Below the pieces are notes generated by a model. The model did no database searches. It was not told the origin of the DNA and was given only the letters and a program-made list of their open reading frames with translations. The position numbers and the translations under genes were made by a program. A stretch of DNA of 64,000 nt from Lysobacter niastensis (GTDB taxonomy: Bacteria > Pseudomonadota > Gammaproteobacteria > Xanthomonadales > Xanthomonadaceae), in NCBI RefSeq assembly GCF_015453285.1, contig NZ_JADLZT010000006.1, positions 124,001 through 188,000 of the forward strand. Direction: 5' to 3'. Positions 6,433-58,114 of this stretch are shown here, piece after piece; positions within the stretch are counted from its first letter, which is position 1, and each line of letters opens with the position of its first letter.

Positions 6433-7614
6433 TCAGTACCACTCCAGCAGCGAGACCCCCAGTCCGACATAGGTGGCGCGGTGGTTGTAGTCGATCAGGC
6501 TCTCGCCATAGCCGTCGAACACCTGCAGATGGCCGCGCAGGCTGTTGTGGATCGGGAAGCCCCAGTCGAACTGCACGGCGCCATGAGAGCGATCGCCGCC
6601 CCGCAGCGAGTGGCGGCCCATCAGCGCGAACTCGTGGCCGTCGTACCGGTAGACCAGCGTGGCGTCGGCACGCCCGGCGTAGTCCTGGATGTCAGGGTTG
6701 TTGTCGTCGGCACCACTCTCCGGCACTCGCCACCAGGGCCGGACCGTCAGCGCCCAGTTCTCGCGGTCGAGCCCGACCATGCCGATGACGCGGTTCCAGC
6801 TGCGCGAAAGCGGATTGGCGCGGCCGTTGGATTGATGGTTGAAGCTGACGCCCGCCATCCGCCCGTTCCAACCCCCGAGCCGATAGTTGTTGCGGAACAT
6901 CAGCATCACTTCGGGCTCGTAGTTGGTCTCGCGGAACGGCCGTGAGGTCTCCGGGCTGTAGACCTGCCAGTGCGAGCTCTGGGTGTAGGCCATCCACAGG
7001 TCGCCGTTGTCGCCGAACATGTTTTCCCAGGCCTTGGTCTTGAAGCTCAGCTGGAACTTGGCCTCGAGCGCGTCGACCGGGATCGGTTCCTGCACCGTGT
7101 TGAGCGGATTGGGCGAAAGCGGCGTCTCGTTGGGACTGCTGCTCCAGAACGCGGGCAGCAGGTAGACCGGCTTGTACGCCCGGAAGTTGAAGATGCCGAG
7201 CTTGGAATCGCGGGCCAGCTCCCAGCGGCTGTCGAGCAGCGAGCCCTTGCCGGCATTGGCGATCGCGCTTCGCAGCGGATCGTCATGGACGTAGAGGTCG
7301 CCCTGCGTTGGCGATGTGGCCTCGGTGGGTTCGGTCGGCTGGATCTGGTCGGCGAGCTCCAGGTTCTTCTGGATCGCGCGCGCCTCCTTGGCCGCGATGT
7401 CGGCGCGTTGCGTGTCGCGCGCGCTGCGGCCGAGGGCGGCGTCGTAGCAGGCCAGGCGATCGGCATCGATATTGATCGAGAGGCACGCTTCGGGAGTGGC
7501 GGGCGTGGCCGGCGTCTGGGCATGGACCGGTTGGGGAGCGGCGGAGGCCGCAGCCAGCAACAGGATCGTGGGTCGGAGAGTTGGGAGACTGTCGCGCTTG
7601 AAAGCTGGCGTCAT
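6433..7614 (-). CDS. pldA: Outer-membrane phospholipase A1 (OMPLA; 393 aa)
   Basis: This calcium-dependent outer-membrane enzyme hydrolyses phospholipids misplaced in the outer leaflet. The catalytic motif is 'H260-Q-S262-N-G', and 'SRSWN274R' supplies the third active-site residue, as in E. coli PldA. A signal peptide ends near residue 32 (VHA). An N-terminal periplasmic extension of about 140 residues precedes the barrel, which ends in the aromatic 'LLEWY'. The extension holds 'CLSINIDADRLACYDAALG', a pattern seen in several xanthomonad envelope proteins. The start ATG is at 7612-7614. The gene follows the DUF456 gene on the same strand. Confidence 0.93.
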   Translation of the reverse strand: MTPAFKRDSLPTLRPTILLLAAASAAPQPVHAQTPATPATPEACLSINIDADRLACYDAALGRSARDTQRADIAAKEARAIQKNLELADQIQPTEPTEATSPTQGDLYVHDDPLRSAIANAGKGSLLDSRWELARDSKLGIFNFRAYKPVYLLPAFWSSSPNETPLSPNPLNTVQEPIPVDALEAKFQLSFKTKAWENMFGDNGDLWMAYTQSSHWQVYSPETSRPFRETNYEPEVMLMFRNNYRLGGWNGRMAGVSFNHQSNGRANPLSRSWNRVIGMVGLDRENWALTVRPWWRVPESGADDNNPDIQDYAGRADATLVYRYDGHEFALMGRHSLRGGDRSHGAVQFDWGFPIHNSLRGHLQVFDGYGESLIDYNHRATYVGLGVSLLEWY

Positions 7615-46112: not shown

Positions 46113-47393
<1,281 letters not shown>

Positions 47394-47449
47394 CGCCCTC
47401 CGGAACGCGGCGCGGGTATGCTTCAGGCAGCCCGCCCTGAGCCGGATGG

Positions 47450-49072
47450 ATGATGCGCTACGCCCTCTATGCGTTCTGCCTGGCCGCCACGCTCGGTTCG
47501 GCCCTGATGAGCGTGCGTTCGCCGGGCTGGTTGTGGGGCCTGGGCGTGTTCGGCGTGCTCGCTGCGCTGGGCACCTGGGACGTGCTGCAACGGCGCAGCA
47601 CGCTGCGGCGCAACTATCCCGTGCTCGCGCATTTCCGTTACGGACTCGAGTCGATCGGGCCGGAGATGCGCCAGTACTTCATCGAGGCCGATACGGCTGA
47701 AGTGCCGTTCTCACGCGAGCAGCGCGCCCTGGTCTACCAGCGCTCCAAGTCGGTCAGTGACGTGCGTCCTTTCGGTACGTTGCAGGACGTGTACGGACCG
47801 GATTACGAGTGGATCAATCATTCGCTGCTGCCCGCGCCGCATGTCGGCCACGATTTCCGAATCATGGTGGGCGAGGGCACGGCCCATCCCTATTCGGCCA
47901 GCGTCTTCAACATCTCGGCCATGAGCTTCGGCTCGTTGTCGGCCAACGCGATCCGCGCGCTCAACCACGGCGCCAGGCTGGGCGGCTTCTATCACGACAC
48001 CGGCGAAGGTTCGATCTCCCCTTATCACCGTGAGTACGGTGGCGACCTGGTCTGGGAGATCGGTTCCGGTTACTTCGGCTGTCGTAACGCCGATGGAAGC
48101 TTCAATGCGGAGCGCTTCGCCGAGAACGCGCGCGACCCGCAGGTGAAGATGATCGAGATCAAGCTCTCGCAGGGCGCCAAGCCGGGGCATGGCGGCGTGC
48201 TGCCGGCCGCGAAGGTCAGCGCGGAGATCGCATTGACGCGTGGCGTGCCGATGGGCGTGGACTGCGTGTCGCCGGCGCAGCACAGCGCCTTCGACTCACC
48301 GTTGGGTTTGCTTCAGTTCGTGGCTCGCTTGCGGGAGCTGTCCGGCGGCAAGCCTGTGGGATTCAAGTTCGCGGTCGGACACCCTTGGGAGTGGTTCGGG
48401 ATTGCCAAGGCGATGCTGGAGAGTGGCCTGCTGCCGGACTTCATCGTCGTCGACGGGGCGGAAGGCGGAACCGGCGCCGCGCCTGCGGAGTTCATCGACC
48501 ACGTCGGCGTGCCGATGCATGAGGCGCTGATGCTCGTGCACAACACGCTCGTCGGCCTGGACCTGCGCAAGCGACTCCGTATCGGCGCAGCCGGACGCAT
48601 CACTAGTGCTTTCGACATCGCGCGCACGATGGCGATGGGCGCGGACTGGTGCAACTCGGCGCGCGGCTTCATGTTCGCGCTGGGCTGCATCCAGTCGCAG
48701 AGTTGCCATACCGATCGCTGTCCGACCGGCGTGGCGACGCAGGACCCGCGACGCTGGCGCCATTTGGATGTGTCGGACAAGGCGGTACGAGTCGCTGCCT
48801 TCCAGCAGAACACGCTGAAGGCACTGCGCGACCTGTTGTGTGCGGCGGGTCTGGAGCATCCGCAGCAACTGGGGCCCGAACACATACTGCGGCGGGTTTC
48901 GCCGATCGAAGTGCGATCGCTCGCTGCGCTCTATCACTTCCTCAAGCCGGGCGACCTGCTCGGCGGGATTCCCGAGCACGCGGTGTTCCGTGCGTTCTGG
49001 GCGGGCGCGCGCAGCGATTCGTTCGCCGCACCGGAAAAGGTCCAGGCGATGCGCGCGAGCAAGTCGGTCTAG
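47450..49072 (+). CDS. FMN-binding glutamate synthase-like protein, membrane-anchored (540 aa)
   Basis: Two N-terminal hydrophobic helices ('YALYAFCLAATLGSALMSV', 'GWLWGLGVFGVLAALG') precede a domain homologous to the FMN-binding central part of GltB. 'MSFGSLSANAIRALNHGARLGG', 'DTGEGSISPYH', 'AKPGHGGVLP', 'GAEGGTGAAPAEF' and 'IGAAGRITSAFDIARTMAMGAD' are seen. An iron-sulphur site is likely in 'CIQSQSCHTDRCPTGVAT'. It lacks the glutaminase domain, so it is not a full glutamate synthase. Its true substrate is unknown. It converges on arsC. Confidence 0.85.
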   Translation: MMRYALYAFCLAATLGSALMSVRSPGWLWGLGVFGVLAALGTWDVLQRRSTLRRNYPVLAHFRYGLESIGPEMRQYFIEADTAEVPFSREQRALVYQRSKSVSDVRPFGTLQDVYGPDYEWINHSLLPAPHVGHDFRIMVGEGTAHPYSASVFNISAMSFGSLSANAIRALNHGARLGGFYHDTGEGSISPYHREYGGDLVWEIGSGYFGCRNADGSFNAERFAENARDPQVKMIEIKLSQGAKPGHGGVLPAAKVSAEIALTRGVPMGVDCVSPAQHSAFDSPLGLLQFVARLRELSGGKPVGFKFAVGHPWEWFGIAKAMLESGLLPDFIVVDGAEGGTGAAPAEFIDHVGVPMHEALMLVHNTLVGLDLRKRLRIGAAGRITSAFDIARTMAMGADWCNSARGFMFALGCIQSQSCHTDRCPTGVATQDPRRWRHLDVSDKAVRVAAFQQNTLKALRDLLCAAGLEHPQQLGPEHILRRVSPIEVRSLAALYHFLKPGDLLGGIPEHAVFRAFWAGARSDSFAAPEKVQAMRASKSV

Positions 49073-49078
49073 GGCGGA

Positions 49079-49432
49079 TCAGTCCAGCAGTTCGAGCACG
49101 CGCTCGGGCGGGCGACCGATCACGGCACGGCCATCGTGGACAAAGATCGGGCGCTCGATCAGCCGCGGGTGCGCGACCATCGCTTCGATCAGCACGTCCT
49201 CCGACAGCGTCGGGTCGGCGAGGTTCAGCGCGGCGTACTCGTCCTCGCCGGTGCGTAAGAGGTCACGTGCAGCGATGCCGAGCTGTCCCAGCAGTTCGCG
49301 CAGCTGAAATGCCGATGGCGGCATTTCGAGGTAGGTGACGATTTCGGGCTCGATGCCGCGTTCGCGCAGCAGTTCCAGCGCGCCGCGGGACTTGGAGCAG
49401 CGCGGATTGTGGAATAGGCGGGTTGCGGTCAT
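49079..49432 (-). CDS. arsC: Glutaredoxin-dependent arsenate reductase, ArsC family (117 aa)
   Basis: The short thioredoxin-fold protein carries the catalytic Cys in 'FHNPRCSKSRGALELL', with 'LIERPIFVHDGRAVIGRPPERVLELL' providing the two conserved Arg. It reduces arsenate with glutathione/glutaredoxin, or it may be a YfgD/Spx-like relative, as many chromosomal copies lie outside ars operons. No arsR or arsB is near. The start ATG at 49430-49432 excludes the tRNA-Val that lies upstream. Confidence 0.85.
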   Translation of the reverse strand: MTATRLFHNPRCSKSRGALELLRERGIEPEIVTYLEMPPSAFQLRELLGQLGIAARDLLRTGEDEYAALNLADPTLSEDVLIEAMVAHPRLIERPIFVHDGRAVIGRPPERVLELLD

Positions 49433-50667: not shown

Positions 50668-51066
50668 ATGGCCCCCCGTCGCAAGCCCCCCGTCCACCAC
50701 GAGACCTCCCTGCGTCATGTCTGGCTGGCCAGCCTTGGCCTGGCCGTGATGGCGCGGCGCCAGACGCTGCGTGCCGGCGAGCGGGTGGTCGTGCAGGCCG
50801 ACGGCCTGCGTCGTCGTGCACTGGCGATGGCCGACGACGCGCGTTCCAGCGTCATTGGAGGCCTGGATAGCGTGCGTGGACAAGTCGAGCCGAGGGTCGT
50901 GCAGTTCAGCACCGAGGTCGAAGCCCGTCTGGCCCCGGTGCTCGACAAGCTTGGACTGAAGCCCGCTTCGCGTAAGCGTCCGGCGCGAAAGACGGCAGCC
51001 CGCAAGCGTCCGGCCGGCAAGGCAACTGCCCGCAAGCCCGCAAGCCGGGCAACACGCCGGGCCTGA
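50668..51066 (+). CDS. Small phasin-like protein with basic Ala/Lys/Arg tail (132 aa)
   Basis: Residues 1-90 are predicted helical ('VIGGLDSVRGQVEPRVVQF', 'VEARLAPVLDKLGLK'). The last 40 residues are a low-complexity tail of R/K-P/T-A units ('KRPARKTAARKRPAGKATARK'), like the DNA-binding tail of PHA-granule PhaF-type phasins and histone H1. AGGAG lies 8 bases before the ATG. It may tie granules to DNA, but that is inference. A terminator follows. The longer phasin at 55386 has a similar tail. Confidence 0.55.
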   Translation: MAPRRKPPVHHETSLRHVWLASLGLAVMARRQTLRAGERVVVQADGLRRRALAMADDARSSVIGGLDSVRGQVEPRVVQFSTEVEARLAPVLDKLGLKPASRKRPARKTAARKRPAGKATARKPASRATRRA

Positions 51067-51130: not shown

Positions 51131-51757
51131 TCAGTCGATGTAAGCGCGGACCAGCGTGTTGAGATGCACGCGTTCGGCGTCCCGCAGGAACGGCGCCAGC
51201 AGCATCATCACCTGCACGATGCCGTCGCGGATCGCAGCCTGCTCGTCGCGGTCGCCGCGGGCGGCGGCGTAGTTGAGCCAGAACGTGGCGATGACCAGCA
51301 CGTTGGTCGCCGTCGCCGCGAGTTCGTCCTTGGAGGCCCGCATCACGCCGGCCTGCGAAAGGCCACGCATGACCGCGTGGGCCTGTTCGTCAGCGCGCTT
51401 GAGGATGCGGGCGAAACGCAGTCGCAGCCGACGGTTGCGGCTGAGGATCTCGACCAGGTCCCGGTGCAGGAAGCGATAGTCCCAGATGCACTCGAACACC
51501 AGGTGCAATTGCAGCCATATGTCCTCCAGGCCAGGCAGCCGCCCTTCCGGCGCGGACAGGGCACTGTCCATGCGCTCCTCGAAGCGCGCGAACAGCTGCT
51601 CGATGATGTCGTCCTTGTTGCGGAAGTGGTAGTAGAGGTTGCCCGGGCTGATTTCCAGCTCGTCGGCGATGTGGTTGGTGGTGACGTTCGGCTCGCCCTG
51701 CGCGTTGAACATGGTCAACGCGGTGTCGAGGATGCGCTGGCGCGTCTGTTTCGCCAT
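51131..51757 (-). CDS. TetR/AcrR family transcriptional regulator (208 aa)
   Basis: The TetR N-terminal helix-turn-helix is clear: 'RILDTALTMFNAQGEPNVTTNHIADELEISPGNLYYHFRNKDDII'. The C-terminal helical ligand-binding domain is not assigned to a known group. The gene lies 28 bases downstream of the acyl-CoA-binding protein gene on the same strand, and upstream of these the acyl-CoA reductase gene diverges. Regulation of that reductase by acyl-CoA or a fatty acid is therefore a reasonable guess, as for FadR/FabR-type TetR proteins. Confidence 0.93.
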   Translation of the reverse strand: MAKQTRQRILDTALTMFNAQGEPNVTTNHIADELEISPGNLYYHFRNKDDIIEQLFARFEERMDSALSAPEGRLPGLEDIWLQLHLVFECIWDYRFLHRDLVEILSRNRRLRLRFARILKRADEQAHAVMRGLSQAGVMRASKDELAATATNVLVIATFWLNYAAARGDRDEQAAIRDGIVQVMMLLAPFLRDAERVHLNTLVRAYID

Positions 51758-51785
51758 GGGGGACGGGGCGACGGTATGCCGCGGC

Positions 51786-52043
51786 TCAGCCGCGGAGCTT
51801 CTTCACGAGGTCGACGTACTTCTTCTTGGCCTCGTCCTGGCCGGTGCCCTTCAGCTTCGACCAGGCTTCGTACTTGGCGGTGCCGACGAAATCGAAGAAA
51901 CCGGGCTTGGGGCCGCTGACATCGCCTTCCGAGCCCTGCTTGTAGAGTGCGTACAGGCGCAGCAGCGTCTCGTTGTCCGGGCGTTCCGGCAGCAGTTGGA
52001 CGTCCTTGGCGGCCTGCTCGAATGCCTGCTGTAGATCGGACAT
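51786..52043 (-). CDS. Acyl-CoA-binding protein, ACBP family (85 aa)
   Basis: A four-helix acyl-CoA-binding protein. Hallmarks are 'LYALYKQGSEGDV' and 'FVGTAKYEAWSKLKG', holding the Tyr/Lys residues that grip the CoA phosphates. This family is common in eukaryotes and rarer in bacteria. It would sequester long-chain acyl-CoA in the cytosol and deliver it to enzymes. It is divergent from the fatty acyl-CoA reductase gene, 155 bases away, and upstream of a TetR regulator. GGGAGGGGG precedes the ATG. The length is typical. Confidence 0.93.
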   Translation of the reverse strand: MSDLQQAFEQAAKDVQLLPERPDNETLLRLYALYKQGSEGDVSGPKPGFFDFVGTAKYEAWSKLKGTGQDEAKKKYVDLVKKLRG

Positions 52044-52198
52044 GACAACGCCCCCTCCCGGTCAGATTGGTCTGGGCATTACCGCACGCGTTGCCGGGGT
52101 GGTCAATACGCAGGGGAATTGTTCGGCGCCATCGGCTCTGGCAAGTTAGTGGCCATGACGCCGCCGCGGGCGGCCCCGACTGGGGACAGGGAGAGGGC
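52044..52198. promoter_or_regulatory. Divergent control region between ACBP and acyl-CoA reductase
   Basis: These 155 bases contain both promoters. On the minus strand TTGACC (52101-52106 reversed) is a plausible -35 for the ACBP-tetR pair. I see no clear TetR-type palindrome by eye. GGGAGAGGGC lies just before the reductase ATG. Confidence 0.4.
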
Positions 52199-54187
52199 AT
52201 GAGTTACTTCGTCACCGGCGCGACCGGGTTCGTCGGGCGCTTTCTGGTCAGCAAGCTGCTCAAGCGCAAGGGCACGATCTACGTGCTCGTTCGCAAGGAT
52301 TCGCATAAAAAGCTCGACGCCATCGCCAAGAAGATGGAATGGGACCGCAAGCGCGTGGTCCTGGTCGACGGCGACATGACCGAAGGCAAATGCGGCGTGA
52401 GCGCCGCGCAACTGCGCTCACTCAACGGCAAGGTGAAACACTTCTTCCATCTCGCCGCGATTTACGACCTGACCGCCAAGGCGGAGCCGCAGCGGTTGGC
52501 CAATGTCGAAGGCACGCGCAATGCGCTGGACCTGGCCGCTGCCATCGGCGCTGGCGTGTTCCACCACACCAGTTCGATCGCCGCCGCGGGCCTGTATCCA
52601 GGCGTTTTCCGCGAGGACATGTTCGATGAGGCCGAAGGGCTCGACGATCCGTACCTGCGCACCAAGCACGAATCCGAAGGGCTGGTGCGGCAGGAAAAGC
52701 GCCTGAAGTGGCGCATCTACCGGCCGGGCATGGTCGTCGGGCACTCGCAGACGGGCGAGATGGACAAGATCGACGGCCCGTACTACTTCTTCACCTTCCT
52801 CAAGAAACTGCGCGAGATGATGCCGCCGTGGATGCCGATGCTCGGCCTCGAAGGCGGGCGGATCAATGTCGTTCCCGTCGATTACGTCGTGGATGCCATG
52901 GACCACATCGCGCACAAGCCGCGGCTGGATGGCCATTGCTTCCACCTGGTCGACCCGGAGCCCATGCGCGTGGGTGAGGTGCTCAACACGTTCGCCCGCG
53001 CCGGCCACACGCCGCAGATGACGATGCGCCTGGACGCTCGCATGTTCGCGTTCGTTCCGGGAAGCGTGCGCAACGTGGTCGGCAACCTGCCGCCGGTGAA
53101 GCGCTTCGTCGGCATGCTGCTGCGCGATTTCAAAGTTCCGAAGGAAACGCTGAAGTTCATCACCTATCCAACGCGCTTCGACAATCGCGAAGCCGAGCGC
53201 GCACTGCGCGGCAGCGGCATCCAGGTGCCGAAACTCGAGGACTACGCCTGGCGCCTTTGGGACTACTGGGAGCGCCATCTCGACCCCGACCTGTTCGTCG
53301 ATCGCACACTGAAGGGCAAGGTGCGCAACAAGGTCGTGGTGATCACCGGCGGTTCGTCGGGCATCGGCCTGGCGACCGCGCAACGCGCGGCGGAAGCAGG
53401 GGCGATCACGATCATTGTCGCGCGTGGCGAGGATGAGCTGTTCAAGGCGCGCGATGCGATGAACGCGGCCGGCGGCAAGGTGTTCGCCTACAGCGCCGAC
53501 CTGTCCGACATGGCCGATTGCGACCGCCTGGTCAAGGCCGTGCTGGACGAGCATGGTCGCGTCGACATCCTGATCAACAACGCCGGGCGCTCGATCCGCC
53601 GCTCGATCGAACTCAGCTACGACCGCTTCCACGATTTCGAGCGGACGATGCAGCTCAACTACTTCGGCAGCCTTCGCCTGATCATGGGTTTCCTTCCGGG
53701 CATGACGCAGCGACGGAAGGGTCACATCATCAACATCAGTTCGATCGGCGTACTGGCGAACTCGCCGCGCTTCTCGGCCTATGTCGCGTCCAAGGCCGCG
53801 CTCGATGCTTTCAGCCGCTGCGCGCAGGGCGAACTGTCTGGCAAGGGCATCTGTTTCACCACGATCAACATGCCGCTGGTGAAAACGCCGATGATCGCAC
53901 CGACCAAGATGTACGAGAGCGTGCCGACGCTGACCACGGAAGAGGCCGCAGACCTGGTGGTCAAGGGCATCATCGAGCGGCCGAGTCGCATCGCCACGCG
54001 CCTTGGCATCTTCGCGTCGGTGGTCAACGCACTGGCGCCAAAGGCCTACGAGGTGGTGATGAACACCGCCTTCGAGCTGTTCCCGGATTCGGCCGCCGCC
54101 AAGGGCGACAAGAAGGCGCTGAAGGACGAGCGCGTCAGTAACGAGCAGATTGCGTTCGCCGCGCTGATGCGCGGCGTGCACTGGTAA
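52199..54187 (+). CDS. Two-domain fatty acyl-CoA reductase (alcohol-forming, 662 aa)
   Basis: The N-terminal domain (1-370) is an extended NAD(P)H-binding reductase: 'FVTGATGFVGRFL' at residue 4, and catalytic Tyr152-x-x-x-Lys156 in 'YLRTKHESE'. The C-terminal domain (375-662) is a classical SDR: 'TGGSSGIGLATAQRAAEAG' at 383, Ser in 'INISSIGVL', Tyr528/Lys532 in 'YVASK'. Size, layout and many segments ('RIYRPGMVVGHSQTGEMDK', 'NEQIAFAALMRGVHW') match the Marinobacter acyl-CoA reductase Maqu_2507. That enzyme reduces acyl-CoA through aldehyde to fatty alcohol with NADPH. The divergent ACBP gene supports an acyl-CoA substrate. Confidence 0.88.
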   Translation: MSYFVTGATGFVGRFLVSKLLKRKGTIYVLVRKDSHKKLDAIAKKMEWDRKRVVLVDGDMTEGKCGVSAAQLRSLNGKVKHFFHLAAIYDLTAKAEPQRLANVEGTRNALDLAAAIGAGVFHHTSSIAAAGLYPGVFREDMFDEAEGLDDPYLRTKHESEGLVRQEKRLKWRIYRPGMVVGHSQTGEMDKIDGPYYFFTFLKKLREMMPPWMPMLGLEGGRINVVPVDYVVDAMDHIAHKPRLDGHCFHLVDPEPMRVGEVLNTFARAGHTPQMTMRLDARMFAFVPGSVRNVVGNLPPVKRFVGMLLRDFKVPKETLKFITYPTRFDNREAERALRGSGIQVPKLEDYAWRLWDYWERHLDPDLFVDRTLKGKVRNKVVVITGGSSGIGLATAQRAAEAGAITIIVARGEDELFKARDAMNAAGGKVFAYSADLSDMADCDRLVKAVLDEHGRVDILINNAGRSIRRSIELSYDRFHDFERTMQLNYFGSLRLIMGFLPGMTQRRKGHIINISSIGVLANSPRFSAYVASKAALDAFSRCAQGELSGKGICFTTINMPLVKTPMIAPTKMYESVPTLTTEEAADLVVKGIIERPSRIATRLGIFASVVNALAPKAYEVVMNTAFELFPDSAAAKGDKKALKDERVSNEQIAFAALMRGVHW

Positions 54188-54203: not shown

Positions 54204-54227
54204 GTGCCGGACTAGAAGGTCCGGCAC
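54204..54227. terminator. Hairpin between convergent genes, spanning a stop codon
   Basis: Perfect 9-bp stem GTGCCGGAC/GTCCGGCAC with loop TAGAAG lies between the reductase and the nuclease-like gene and includes the stop of the latter. There is no T-run, so termination is only possible. Confidence 0.4.
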
Positions 54228-55192
54228 TGCAGGAAGCGGACCGGGCGAGTGCTGCCGGCCGGCGGTTGCAGGTGCAGTCGCGACACCCGCAGCGTCTCGT
54301 AGCGCTCGAGGACCGCGCAGATGTCGTTGACCGGGTCGCCGTCGTCCTCACGCAGGTACACCACCAGCGTCGAGCGCGTCGACCACATGACCCGTTCGAT
54401 GCCCGGCACGGCGGAAACGCCGCGGATGACCTCATTGCGCTCGAACTCCTCGCGATTGGGGTCGGCGGGTGCCGGAGCGGTCATGCCATTGACGGCGGAC
54501 TTGGCCGGCGCCGCGGCCTCGCGGGCGGGGGCGTCAGGCGCGGCAACTGCTGCCTCCGTCGCGGCCGGCGCGGACGGTTCCTGCGATGGCTTGCGGGCCA
54601 GCAGCGCGGCCAGTACTGCGGCCAGGACGAACCCGAGTATGAGGGCGGCCCCCCAGGCGATCGCGGTTTCGCGCGCAGTACGCGCCTGGGCCTGGTTGGC
54701 GAGGTCGTTGTGCAGCGTGGGCGGCAGCAGCGGTTTCACCAGCGTCCACACCGCATTGCCGTCATACAGTTCGATGCCGGAAGCCGCCTTGCGGGCGTCG
54801 GCTTCGATCGTGCCGGGCGTGGCGAGAATCCCGCCCGCGGCGCCGTGGAAGCGGATGCCGTCGGCCAGTTCACGGACCATGGGTGTGGTGATGCGGTAGT
54901 TCGCCCCCTGCTTGCACGACAGCAGCCAGAGTCGGCCCTCGCGATTGAGGCGGAGGTCGGCTTCCAGGCCACGCTCGGCCGCGTCCTCGATCGATTCGGC
55001 AACGAACCCGCGTGGCTGCAGTGCTTCGATCACCAGGCGTGAAAACTCGCGCCAGCGCATCGCGGACAGTGCCTCGATGCCGGCGCGTGCTTCCGATTGC
55101 TTGCGGCGAACCAGCCACAGATAGGCGGTAAGGGCGACGCCGAGCAGTACGGCGATGATCAGCGCGGTGGTGACGGAGAACCCGTTGAGCAT
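54212..55192 (-). CDS. Membrane-anchored restriction-endonuclease-like protein (Mrr/PDDEXK, 326 aa)
   Basis: An N-terminal helix (about residues 8-27) anchors a PDDEXK-like domain (about 35-165): 'MRWREFSRLVIEALQPRGFVAE', 'GLEADLRLNREGRLWLLSCKQG' (Asp, then S-C-K-Q as the E/QxK part), 'RITTPMVRELADGIRFHGA' and 'GGILATPG'. A second membrane helix (about 180-200) and an Ala/Pro linker lead to a C-terminal domain of about 80 residues, Cys-containing. The fold suggests an Mrr-type nuclease on the cytosolic face, but activity is not shown. The stop lies in a hairpin. It converges on the acyl-CoA reductase gene. Confidence 0.72.
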   Translation of the reverse strand: MLNGFSVTTALIIAVLLGVALTAYLWLVRRKQSEARAGIEALSAMRWREFSRLVIEALQPRGFVAESIEDAAERGLEADLRLNREGRLWLLSCKQGANYRITTPMVRELADGIRFHGAAGGILATPGTIEADARKAASGIELYDGNAVWTLVKPLLPPTLHNDLANQAQARTARETAIAWGAALILGFVLAAVLAALLARKPSQEPSAPAATEAAVAAPDAPAREAAAPAKSAVNGMTAPAPADPNREEFERNEVIRGVSAVPGIERVMWSTRSTLVVYLREDDGDPVNDICAVLERYETLRVSRLHLQPPAGSTRPVRFLQCRTF

Positions 55193-55385: not shown

Positions 55386-55949
55386 TCAGGAAGCAGGTGC
55401 GGCCGGGGCCTTCCTGGTAGCGCGGCGGGGCGCCTTCTTGGCGGCGGCCTTGCGCGGAGCCTTGGCAGCGGTGGTCCTGGCTGCAGGGGTCTTCGCGGCC
55501 TTGCGTGCCGGAGCGCCACCCTGCTTGCGCAGTTCGGCGGTCAGTGCGTCGACGCGGCGGCTGAGTTCGTTGAGGTCGTCGCGGCCCGGCACGCCGAGCT
55601 TGACGAGGGCGCGCTGCACGCGTTCTTCAAACACCTTTTCCAGCCGATCCCACGTGTCGGTGGCGCGCTCACGCGCCTGGCCAACTTTCGATTCGACGGC
55701 ATCTCGCACCGCATCGGCTTGGCCGCCCGCGAACTTGCGCGCGGTCTGCTCGAGCGTGAGTCCTTCCTTGACCAGAGCCTCGAACAATTTCGTTCCTTCG
55801 GCCTGGGCACGGCTGAAGGCGCCGACGCCGGCCAGCCAGATCTGCTGTGCCGATTCGCTCAGGCTGCGGGACAGGCGCTCGGCCTGCTGTTGTGCATTGG
55901 CCGATCCGGCCGTGGACTTCTTCGCGGTCTTCTTGAACTTGGCAGCCAT
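55386..55949 (-). CDS. Phasin family protein (PHA-granule associated, PhaI/PhaF-like; 187 aa)
   Basis: A helical phasin domain (about 20-115) contains 'IWLAGVGAFSRAQAEGTKLFEALVKEG', the signature of poly(hydroxyalkanoate) granule proteins. A short coiled coil with 'DLNELSRRVDALTAELRKQ' comes next, then a basic Ala/Lys/Arg tail ('KAPRKAAAKKAPRRATRKA') like histone H1 and PhaF. It coats lipid inclusions and may link them to DNA. No PHA synthase lies in the window. The start ATG is at 55947-55949. Confidence 0.9.
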   Translation of the reverse strand: MAAKFKKTAKKSTAGSANAQQQAERLSRSLSESAQQIWLAGVGAFSRAQAEGTKLFEALVKEGLTLEQTARKFAGGQADAVRDAVESKVGQARERATDTWDRLEKVFEERVQRALVKLGVPGRDDLNELSRRVDALTAELRKQGGAPARKAAKTPAARTTAAKAPRKAAAKKAPRRATRKAPAAPAS

Positions 55950-56030: not shown

Positions 56031-57293
56031 TCAGTGCGTGCCGCGTCGCCGCGTCCTGCTGGCCGGCTTGCGGGCAACCATGTGTTCGACGTCGTCCAGC
56101 GCACGTTTCAGGCGCGCGGTCGTTTCGGTGTGGCGGGAGGGCGGCGCGATGCCGTCCAGGACCGACCGCTTCTCGTCGGCCAGGATCTCGTCGCGCAAGC
56201 GGATGCCGTTGGCGGCCAGTTGCGGGCGCAGCGTCTCGGCGTTCCGGCGCAGGTCGGCCAGCGTGTTGCGGTAGGCGAGCTCGCAGATCCTGCGTCGCGA
56301 GGAGAAGCTGAAGGCATTGGTGAAGAACATCTCGCTGTCGCGGGCGTTGGGCTCGAAGACCAGCTGGTCGATGTTCGGATACTGCTGGCTGTAGCGGGCC
56401 AGTCCCACCTGCATGCGCGATTGCAGCAGCGTGCGGAAGGTCTGCGAGAGAACGGTAGGCAGCCCGCCCGCAGCCAGGCTGCGATCGTGGTCGACGGGCA
56501 TGCCCTCGTTCTGGTTGAAAGGCACCAGCGGGTTGATGCCGATCATCAGGTCGATGTCCTGATCCAGCACGACCGAGGCATGCATCGTGCGGCGCAGTGC
56601 GCCGTCGACGAAGTGGCGGCCCCGGATTTCCACTGGCGGATACAGGGCGGGCAGGGCGGCGCTGGCCTGCACCGCCTGCGAGATGGGTACGTCTTCCCAG
56701 CCAGGGCCGCCGAACTTGACGGCTTCGCCGCTATCGAGGTCGACGGCCACCACGTAAAGCGGTGCGGACAAGTCGCGGAAATCGTTGCTACGGCCGCGCC
56801 GGGTGAACACGTCGCGAAGGAATTCCTCGATCTGACTGTTGTCGAACAGGCCGTTCGGCACGAGTCCACCGAAACGGGTGATCAGGTCGGCCCAGCGCGC
56901 TTCCCGCGGTGCGAACAGCAGCTCGCTCCACCATTGCGTGGCGAGTCGCGGCAGGCTGGCGGCGCGGCGAAGATACTCGTAGATCGCCGGCCGCATGAAC
57001 GTGTCGGGCCGGAATTGCACGTCGTCGCTGTCGCCGGTGATGAAGATCCGGCACATCTCGGCGGTGTCCATGCGGTTGGCCAGACCGGCCGCCAGGAAAG
57101 CACCGCTGCTGACGCCGACATAGCAGTCCAGCCGATTGAGGTCGAGTCCCTCGAACGCCTCGTCGAGGGCGCGTAACGCCCCCAGCTCGTACATGCCGCC
57201 GATCGGCCCGCCGCCGGCGACCGCCAGTCCGATACGGGCCTTGGCGCCGGAGGGCTTGCTCGCCCGTTGCCGGGCGGTGTGGATGGACAGCAT
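56031..57293 (-). CDS. Patatin-like phospholipase (420 aa)
   Basis: The patatin core starts 'IGLAVAGGGPIGGMYELGAL', with the oxyanion glycines at about 27-32. The nucleophile elbow 'GVSSG' (60-64) gives Ser62, and 'HFVDGALRRTM' gives the Asp. 'ARDSEMFFTNAFSFSSRRRICELAYRNTL' near the end is typical of a bacterial patatin group often found near phasins. The N-terminus is basic with no clear signal. It may act on membrane or granule lipids. The ATG at 57291-57293 follows a weak site. It is divergent from the next gene. Confidence 0.87.
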   Translation of the reverse strand: MLSIHTARQRASKPSGAKARIGLAVAGGGPIGGMYELGALRALDEAFEGLDLNRLDCYVGVSSGAFLAAGLANRMDTAEMCRIFITGDSDDVQFRPDTFMRPAIYEYLRRAASLPRLATQWWSELLFAPREARWADLITRFGGLVPNGLFDNSQIEEFLRDVFTRRGRSNDFRDLSAPLYVVAVDLDSGEAVKFGGPGWEDVPISQAVQASAALPALYPPVEIRGRHFVDGALRRTMHASVVLDQDIDLMIGINPLVPFNQNEGMPVDHDRSLAAGGLPTVLSQTFRTLLQSRMQVGLARYSQQYPNIDQLVFEPNARDSEMFFTNAFSFSSRRRICELAYRNTLADLRRNAETLRPQLAANGIRLRDEILADEKRSVLDGIAPPSRHTETTARLKRALDDVEHMVARKPASRTRRRGTH

Positions 57294-57385
57294 GGAGGCG
57301 GACACACTACGACGGAACTGGTCCCGAGTGTAGCCCAGCCCGTGGCTTGCGCCGGGCCGGGGCCGGGCCCGATGATCAGGGCGCG

Positions 57386-58114
57386 ATGTCCAGGACCCGC
57401 GACCTCCCCGCAAGACTCGGCTGCCTGCTGGCACGCCATCAGGTCCTGCACGACCACGAACGGGAACCGCGCAACCGGTTGCGCTGGCTGCCGGAGCTGC
57501 GCCGCTGGCAGACGCAGCGACTGGAAGCGAGTTTCGACCGGTTCCTGCGCGATCCGCGCCGCCGTCCGGCCGCGCAGTTCTTCCTCACCGATGTCTACAA
57601 CGACAACGACTTCAGCCGCCGCGATGCCGATATCGCGAAGGTGCTTCCGATGATGCAGCGCCTGCTGCCGGGGGCTCTGCTGGCCACGGTCGCCGACGCC
57701 ATCGAATTGGGCCTGCTGACCCATGCCCTCGACCTGCGGATGGCGCAGGTGCTGGAGGAGATCGCACCGGACCGGCGCCGTCTCGATGCTGTGCTCTATG
57801 CAGAGGTGTACCGGAGGTGCGGGCTACCGCGCCTGCGTGGGCACCAGGTCGCACTGCTCGCAAAGGTCGGCATCGACCTGGGGCGGGCCATGCGGCTGCC
57901 GGGGGTGTCGATGCTGCTGAAACTCTCGCGAGGTCCGGCCCGGGCGGCCGGACTGGAGGAACTCCAGGGCTTCCTCGAACGCGGCTTCGCCGCGTTCGGT
58001 GCATTGGGGGATGCCGGCGCCTTCATCGCCGAGATCGAGGCCGATGAGCGCGAAGTCTTACGCCGGCTCTTCGCCGGGGATCCCCGGCCGTTCGGGATGA
58101 CCCGCGTCGAGTGA
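57386..58114 (+). CDS. Conserved hypothetical protein, helical (242 aa)
   Basis: The protein is mainly alpha-helical and basic, with the segment 'FFLTDVYNDNDFSRRDADIAKVLPMMQRLLPGALL' (residues about 62-96), which looks strongly conserved. 'LTHALDLRMAQVL' and 'YAEVYRRCG' follow. No signal peptide or membrane helix is seen. I recall similar proteins in other gammaproteobacteria but cannot name the family. CAGGG lies before the ATG at 57386. It is divergent from the patatin gene and converges on the PHA-system gene. Confidence 0.7.
   Translation: MSRTRDLPARLGCLLARHQVLHDHEREPRNRLRWLPELRRWQTQRLEASFDRFLRDPRRRPAAQFFLTDVYNDNDFSRRDADIAKVLPMMQRLLPGALLATVADAIELGLLTHALDLRMAQVLEEIAPDRRRLDAVLYAEVYRRCGLPRLRGHQVALLAKVGIDLGRAMRLPGVSMLLKLSRGPARAAGLEELQGFLERGFAAFGALGDAGAFIAEIEADEREVLRRLFAGDPRPFGMTRVE

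Follow-up and report, generated by a model that had tools for sequence, protein, structure and literature searches.

Maqu_2507 of Marinobacter, which we take to be the product of acrB, is a two-domain protein similar in length to the alcohol-forming fatty acyl-CoA reductase (FAR) studied here, a 662-residue protein encoded at 52199..54187 on the plus strand of a 64,000-nucleotide stretch of Lysobacter niastensis DNA (the window; contig C12, 124001-188000, of genome G000). The FAR gene is divergent from genes for an acyl-CoA-binding protein (ACBP) and a TetR-type regulator, and we conclude that this trio is likely to be part of a module for the storage of wax ester, a neutral lipid. A wax-ester role has been described for Maqu_2507 (PMC6308636, PMC11948995), to which the FAR is likened here by layout. 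In Marinobacter atlanticus, deletion of its homologues of farA and acrB left only little wax ester (PMC6308636), and the pathway scheme given in PMC11948995 combines a FAR with a wax ester synthase/diacylglycerol acyltransferase (WS/DGAT). In a different phylum, FCR1 (Rv3391) of Mycobacterium tuberculosis is a FAR of 650 residues with 40% identity to Maqu_2507 (PMC3522743). Formation of wax esters by two-domain FARs and WS/DGATs is thus established knowledge (PMC6308636, PMC11948995, PMC3522743). Genes for ACBP, a Maqu_2507-like short-chain dehydrogenase/reductase (SDR) and phasin/polyhydroxyalkanoate (PHA) functions have been described near ws/dgat on beta- and gammaproteobacterial scaffolds from Antarctic sediment (PMC10351704); four kinds of gene are thus in common with the present module, and WS/DGAT cluster III of that work includes Xanthomonadales. 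The main text of that paper does not mention TetR, whereas here TetR belongs to the pattern and the Lysobacter genome has its WS/DGAT at an unlinked place. An earlier note on this DNA knew of no described function for the trio in xanthomonads; the association has in part been described, near ws/dgat, and the TetR is what the main text of PMC10351704 leaves unmentioned.

We searched 200 genomes of the order Xanthomonadales for FAR, ACBP, WS/DGAT, PhaC, phasin and TetR (the last at E <=1e-25). The FAR-positive genomes were the 130 with a match above the cut-off plus 5 with fragments (G026, G038, G114, G123, G138), giving 135. We observed that FAR and WS/DGAT occurred together in 134 genomes, FAR only in 1, WS/DGAT only in 4 and neither in 61 (phi 0.94). 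The five genomes in which the two disagreed (G076, G157, G168, G182, G196) are all less than 97% complete, and the sole FAR-positive genome without WS/DGAT (1/135) is G182, which is 81% complete. Among the 125 genomes that are at least 97% complete (contamination was not filtered), FAR and WS/DGAT agreed in 125/125, with 68 having both and 57 neither. TetR was found with FAR in 129 of the 200 genomes (FAR only 6, TetR only 2, neither 63; phi 0.91), and in the more complete set it agreed with FAR in 124/125, being present in the same 68 genomes and in the exception, G106.

The co-occurrence of FAR with ACBP was lower (both 128, FAR only 7, ACBP only 28, neither 37; phi 0.58). The more complete set includes 27 genomes with ACBP and without TetR, and FAR and WS/DGAT were found in 0/27 of these, indicating that TetR tracks FAR and WS/DGAT, not ACBP. 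Within the family of the Lysobacter genome (36 genomes, 13 genera), all four genes were present in 7 genera and none in 5, while G106, the only genome of its genus in the sample, had TetR alone. In another family (f12), FAR, WS/DGAT and TetR were present in the same 4/33 genomes and ACBP in 30/33. We also observed three f12 loci (L094-L096; genomes G031, G039, G115) with ACBP genes in genomes that have no FAR, WS/DGAT or TetR, so in these genomes the bacterial protein must serve some other purpose.

The Lysobacter genome has a single WS/DGAT match (PF03007, C15:140142-140924), on a contig other than that of the window. The protein (L090:9516-11057, minus strand, 513 residues by the longest frame) scored 434 bits against TIGR02946 (cut-off 310), contains PF03007 and PF06974, and carries HHSYADG, which fits the WS/DGAT motif HHxxxDG (PMC11948995). 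It matches the solved structures 6chj (deposited as diacylglycerol O-acyltransferase) and 7nxg.

In some relatives the WS/DGAT lies beside the trio. FAR loci were collected as the best 80 of 582 confirmed by similarity to FAR, and 55/80 have at least 5 kb upstream of FAR for the linkage search. Using the Lysobacter WS/DGAT as the tblastn query, we found a match in the flank of 10/80 loci, two of them being pieces at the locus end (L048, L055). The order WS/DGAT, phasin match, TetR, ACBP, FAR was seen in three Wenzhouxiangella loci (L058, L064, L072) and two from metagenome-assembled genomes (L061, L080), and in these five the WS/DGAT ends 2.8-3.4 kb from FAR. In L065, the WS/DGAT lies 0.2 kb from FAR and no TetR match was found. 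In L061, Pfam confirmed the WS/DGAT, a TPR protein, TetR, ACBP, FAR and a patatin; its phasin was matched by tblastn alone, and the two plus-strand frames scanned at that place gave no family. Among 31 same-contig pairs of FAR and WS/DGAT, picked from the matches listed and therefore a selection and not a rate, the distance is below 15 kb in 19 (3.2-10.2 kb) and at least 78 kb in the other 12. No WS/DGAT match was found in the flank of any locus with FAR identity of at least 73%.

The three genes claimed in the earlier note are all present where it placed them. FAR runs from an ATG at 52199 to a stop at 54187, and a divergent intergenic region of 155 bp (52044..52198) separates it from ACBP (51786..52043, minus strand, 85 residues). 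TetR (51131..51757, minus strand, 208 residues) follows ACBP after a gap of 28 bp, and is probably co-transcribed with it. Leaving aside 3/80 loci without a FAR start, we looked for a divergent ACBP within 1000 bp and a TetR within 1500 bp upstream of FAR. Both were found in 67/77 loci, TetR alone in 1/77 and neither in 9/77, so the divergent arrangement is retained in most of these relatives. The arrangement is old and beyond chance. The closest loci include named Lysobacter, with FAR identity of 86-88%.

ACBP and TetR are separated by -20 to 60 bp in 63/69 loci having both. The distance from FAR to this pair can be large: it is 9-11 kb in the five g9 genomes, about 90 kb in G005 and about 270 kb in G091, and in G011 the two are on separate contigs. 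In the cases inspected (G091, G005, G011 and the g9 genomes G101, G180, G190 and G195), ACBP and TetR stayed together despite the distant FAR. Since the pair remains joined when FAR is apart, we consider ACBP-TetR and FAR to be two separate units.

The FAR matched the NF005539 model (NF005539/PRK07201 family) over its full length (residues 1-662 on profile positions 1-657) at 1001 bits, against a cut-off of 549. Its N-terminal Rossmann half is PF07993 (residues 5-234, E 1.5e-49) and its C-terminal half PF00106 (residues 378-568, E 4.2e-52). In a 38-sequence alignment, Y152/K156 and Y528/K532 were invariant, and both glycine motifs were mostly invariant (T6, G7, G10, F11, G13; T383, G384, G388, I389, G390). 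In a sequence search, 4u7w, an R domain, aligned with residues 4-269, and the SDR matches began at about residue 375; the AlphaFold2 model (mean pLDDT 80.7, pTM 0.55) likewise matched thioester-reductase R domains and SDRs in a structure search. The description of two reductase domains, each with a nucleotide site and a Tyr-x3-Lys pair, was thus confirmed, and the two-domain layout with full-length membership of NF005539 agrees with the proposed Maqu_2507 type.

The ACBP is, by sequence, an ordinary PF00887 protein (E 5.6e-30, 103.8 bits, positions 1-76 of 76, above the gathering score); it is the sole match to this family in its genome, and phmmer aligned it with solved ACBPs (best E 1.1e-19). 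The TetR has a PF00440 match (E 1e-12) and a PF13972 C-terminal domain (E 1.9e-43), the latter being present in 33/33 aligned members. The solved structures closest to it by sequence were 3nnr (Maqu_3571, E 1.5e-40) and 3rh2 (Sama_0099, E 4.7e-35), and the same pair was closest by fold (TM 0.88 and 0.89, respectively). These share the PF13972 kind with our TetR, and their deposition titles name no function. The structure search gave no clue to the ligand, as only these two stood out and the other listed matches were lower-scoring TetR folds. Regulators of the FadR, PsrA and PvrA kinds are acyl-CoA-sensing members of the TetR group. The present TetR scored 28.5 bits against the NCBIfam FadR model (cut-off 200) and 24 bits against that for PsrA (cut-off 300), and 7w2o (identical in sequence to 7w2q, titled PvrA) matched it at residues 4-63 only. 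In genome G160 (C3:46172-46796 and 47347-49200), the TetR match is in two pieces in different frames (residues 1-135 and 153-208), and FAR appears as separately scoring pieces inside one 679-residue frame; this is sequence error or decay in that single genome.

We aligned 21 intergenic regions, namely that of the window and 20 of the 67 relatives (120-175 bp, FAR identity of at least 80%), and observed two conserved promoter-like units. The ACBP side has the blocks ggCATcAcA-CAcG and GGTCAA. On the minus strand, GGTCAA reads as a -35 element, TTGACC, and GGCATTACCGCACG as an extended -10 of the ACBP-TetR unit. The FAR unit, on the plus strand at 52115-52149, reads GGAATTGT ... CTCTGGCAAGTTAG, and its block across the alignment is ATTGT-N14-TCTGGCA and then acgTAG, which is less constant; ATTGT and CTCTGGCA are each conserved at 85% or more, and the 14-base spacing to TCTGGCA is fixed. 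The spacing between the two inner blocks is variable, and where the genes lie apart, as in the g9 genomes, each of them still has its own block. For these reasons the conserved units look like two separate promoters. Judged by eye, the FAR block would make a poor sigma-70 promoter, its -10 included, and it faintly resembles what we take to be the ECF (RpoE-type) consensus. At up to three mismatches its sole site in the Lysobacter genome is its own, and this search therefore gave no regulon.

No TetR operator was located in 52044-52198, and no palindrome of fixed spacing was found in the 21 aligned regions. We rejected two candidates. In the inverted repeat GTCAAT...ATTGTC the gap differs among species (9 bases, 10, or even over 20), and we read this repeat as a pair of -35 elements placed back to back; more distant relatives do not keep the GCAT...ATGC found at the ACBP -10. 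Where ACBP, FAR and WS/DGAT lie apart, no shared palindrome was seen by eye upstream of them.

In the exception, G106, the site (L108; G106:C1:1060000-1073000) retains the restriction-like gene, a TetR of 91% identity and ArsC, while FAR and ACBP are gone and about 200 bp (6982-7186) lie between the restriction-like gene and TetR. In this remaining DNA, ahead of the orphan TetR, there is a TTGACC...TGCACTAATG unit resembling the ACBP promoter. The genome of G106 has no ACBP or WS/DGAT match, and its best match to the FAR model is weak (E 4.9e-35). The joint absence of FAR, ACBP and WS/DGAT supports their belonging to one pathway.

The neighbouring genes of the window were also considered. A gene for a phasin-like protein with a Lys/Ala-rich tail (50668..51066, plus strand) matches PF05597 weakly (E 6.9e-4, 20.1 bits against a gathering score of 28.8); it occupies the position that the phasin match holds between TetR and WS/DGAT in the Wenzhouxiangella-type clusters L058, L061, L064, L072 and L080. 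The TPR, phasin-like, TetR, ACBP, FAR and patatin parts of those clusters are retained in the window, with WS/DGAT elsewhere. Downstream of FAR there is a phasin (55386..55949, minus strand, PF05597 at E 8.2e-45), a frequent neighbour whose tblastn match lies downstream in many loci. Beyond it is a patatin-like phospholipase of uncertain start (56031..57434, minus strand, PF01734 at E 1.7e-29), also a frequent neighbour and one that adjoins FAR in L061. Directly behind FAR, here and in many Lysobacter-type loci, a gene (54212-55192) encodes a protein whose Mrr_cat domain (PF04471) is restriction-endonuclease-like. The module is thus flanked by one clear phasin gene and one weak match to that family, in a genome that has no PHA synthase match above the cut-off.

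We therefore regard the trio as a likely part of a wax-ester storage module. What was observed are the domains, the conserved active sites, the arrangement, the co-occurrence of FAR, WS/DGAT and TetR, and the linkage of all of these in some relatives. From its family, FAR would use NADPH to turn long-chain acyl-CoA into fatty alcohol within one polypeptide, and the WS/DGAT, from its family and phyletic pattern, would esterify this alcohol with another acyl-CoA, yielding wax ester. ACBP may buffer acyl-CoA and supply both enzymes. TetR would repress its own operon, and probably FAR as well, from the shared region, and acyl-CoA or a related lipid may release it; the role, ligand and operator of TetR are predictions. 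The FAR and WS/DGAT enzymes and the wax-ester pathway are of a known kind, and the regulator is the element that lends itself to testing.

Several points weigh against the wax-ester reading. The co-occurrence is given as genome counts, uncorrected for shared ancestry, and includes weak calls, namely the WS/DGAT of G166 among the 68 (E 9.6e-6) and the FAR of G114, which is in two fragments. ACBP is present in 28/65 FAR-negative genomes, a loose tie to FAR. Nine loci do not have the arrangement (L035, L036, L040, L065, L066, L069, L076, L078, L081; L040 is from Chiayiivirga); in L065, L066, L076 and L078 an ACBP and/or TetR match lies farther away or on the opposite strand, and in L069 (Hahella) and L081 (Parendozoicomonas) neither was matched within the FAR locus. 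The Lysobacter WS/DGAT is on a different contig. As FAR and ACBP-TetR are far apart in the g9 genomes, G091, G005 and G011, a single shared operator is not general. The 91% identity still seen in the orphan TetR of G106 is a hint that it has another target or that the loss was recent. Triacylglycerol is also a product that WS/DGAT enzymes can form, and no alcohol is needed for it. In Lysobacter the reading is drawn from gene content.

The earlier note had proposed a fatty-alcohol module. Such a self-contained module, with free alcohol or aldehyde as the product (for example, for secreted or membrane lipid) and ACBP feeding the reductase, would fit the adjacency of the trio and the flanks free of WS/DGAT at FAR identity of 73% or more. 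We consider it very unlikely, since every more complete genome that has FAR also has WS/DGAT and the single case among the 135 is the incomplete G182. The interpretation in the earlier note holds in part: the FAR family and the conserved trio stand, but the pathway very probably does not stop at the alcohol, given that FAR and WS/DGAT agree throughout the 125 genomes and form a cluster in some relatives. The part that the earlier note gave to ACBP is not fully right, its tie to FAR being loose and that of TetR tight; sensing of acyl-CoA by TetR, also proposed there, is a prediction. FAR could instead act mainly in the turnover of triacylglycerol or other lipid, for instance in disposing of excess acyl-CoA, with wax ester as a minor product. 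WS/DGAT enzymes do act on alcohols, diacylglycerol or both (PMC11948995); however, triacylglycerol synthesis needs no fatty alcohol, and the tight co-occurrence of FAR with WS/DGAT would be left unexplained, so that this too seems unlikely.

The phasin on one side of the module and the phasin-like gene on the other, together with the phasin matches near FAR in many loci, would suit a neighbourhood of PHA metabolism. We dropped PHA storage as a reading, as the Lysobacter genome has no PhaC above the cut-off (best PF07167 match E 6.8e-4, 20.7 bits against 23.7). Across the 200 genomes FAR and PhaC are hardly associated (phi 0.13), and phasin is above the cut-off in 154 whereas PhaC is in 47, of which 25 are at E<1e-30; a PHA neighbourhood is thus most improbable. 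It is easier to imagine that TetR controls only ACBP and itself, or general acyl-CoA pools, and that FAR is a mere neighbour. TetR does stay beside ACBP in the inspected genomes where FAR is elsewhere, and an ACBP-type promoter unit persists ahead of the orphan TetR of G106, but the 27 genomes that have ACBP and neither TetR, FAR nor WS/DGAT speak against it. We hold this restricted role to be possible, while leaning against it.

A literature search found no report linking wax ester with Xanthomonadaceae. The Lysobacter matches for wax ester had titles on other subjects, and the sole match for this genus and fatty acyl-CoA reductase concerned Streptomyces alpiniamides. No paper was found joining acyl-CoA-binding protein, fatty acyl-CoA reductase and Xanthomonas, and a search for bacterial ACBP with fatty acyl reductase and TetR gave only insect papers and a review on fatty-alcohol engineering. 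Among the matches listed, no title or abstract opening named a TetR regulator of wax-ester synthesis. The present analysis adds the order-wide co-occurrence, the regular presence of TetR, and a WS/DGAT that in the Lysobacter type is unlinked. As a speculation, more doubtful than the module itself, the PF13972 TetR may serve specifically to switch wax-ester formation and may have been passed on as a unit with FAR and WS/DGAT throughout the order; it would read acyl-CoA buffered by the ACBP of its own operon and so tie wax storage to acyl-CoA supply, and the PF05597 phasins may coat wax-ester droplets in bacteria without PHA synthase. On this pattern, many members of the order would be expected to store wax ester. 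With a specific candidate regulator named, the bacterial choice between wax and membrane lipid becomes testable in Lysobacter.

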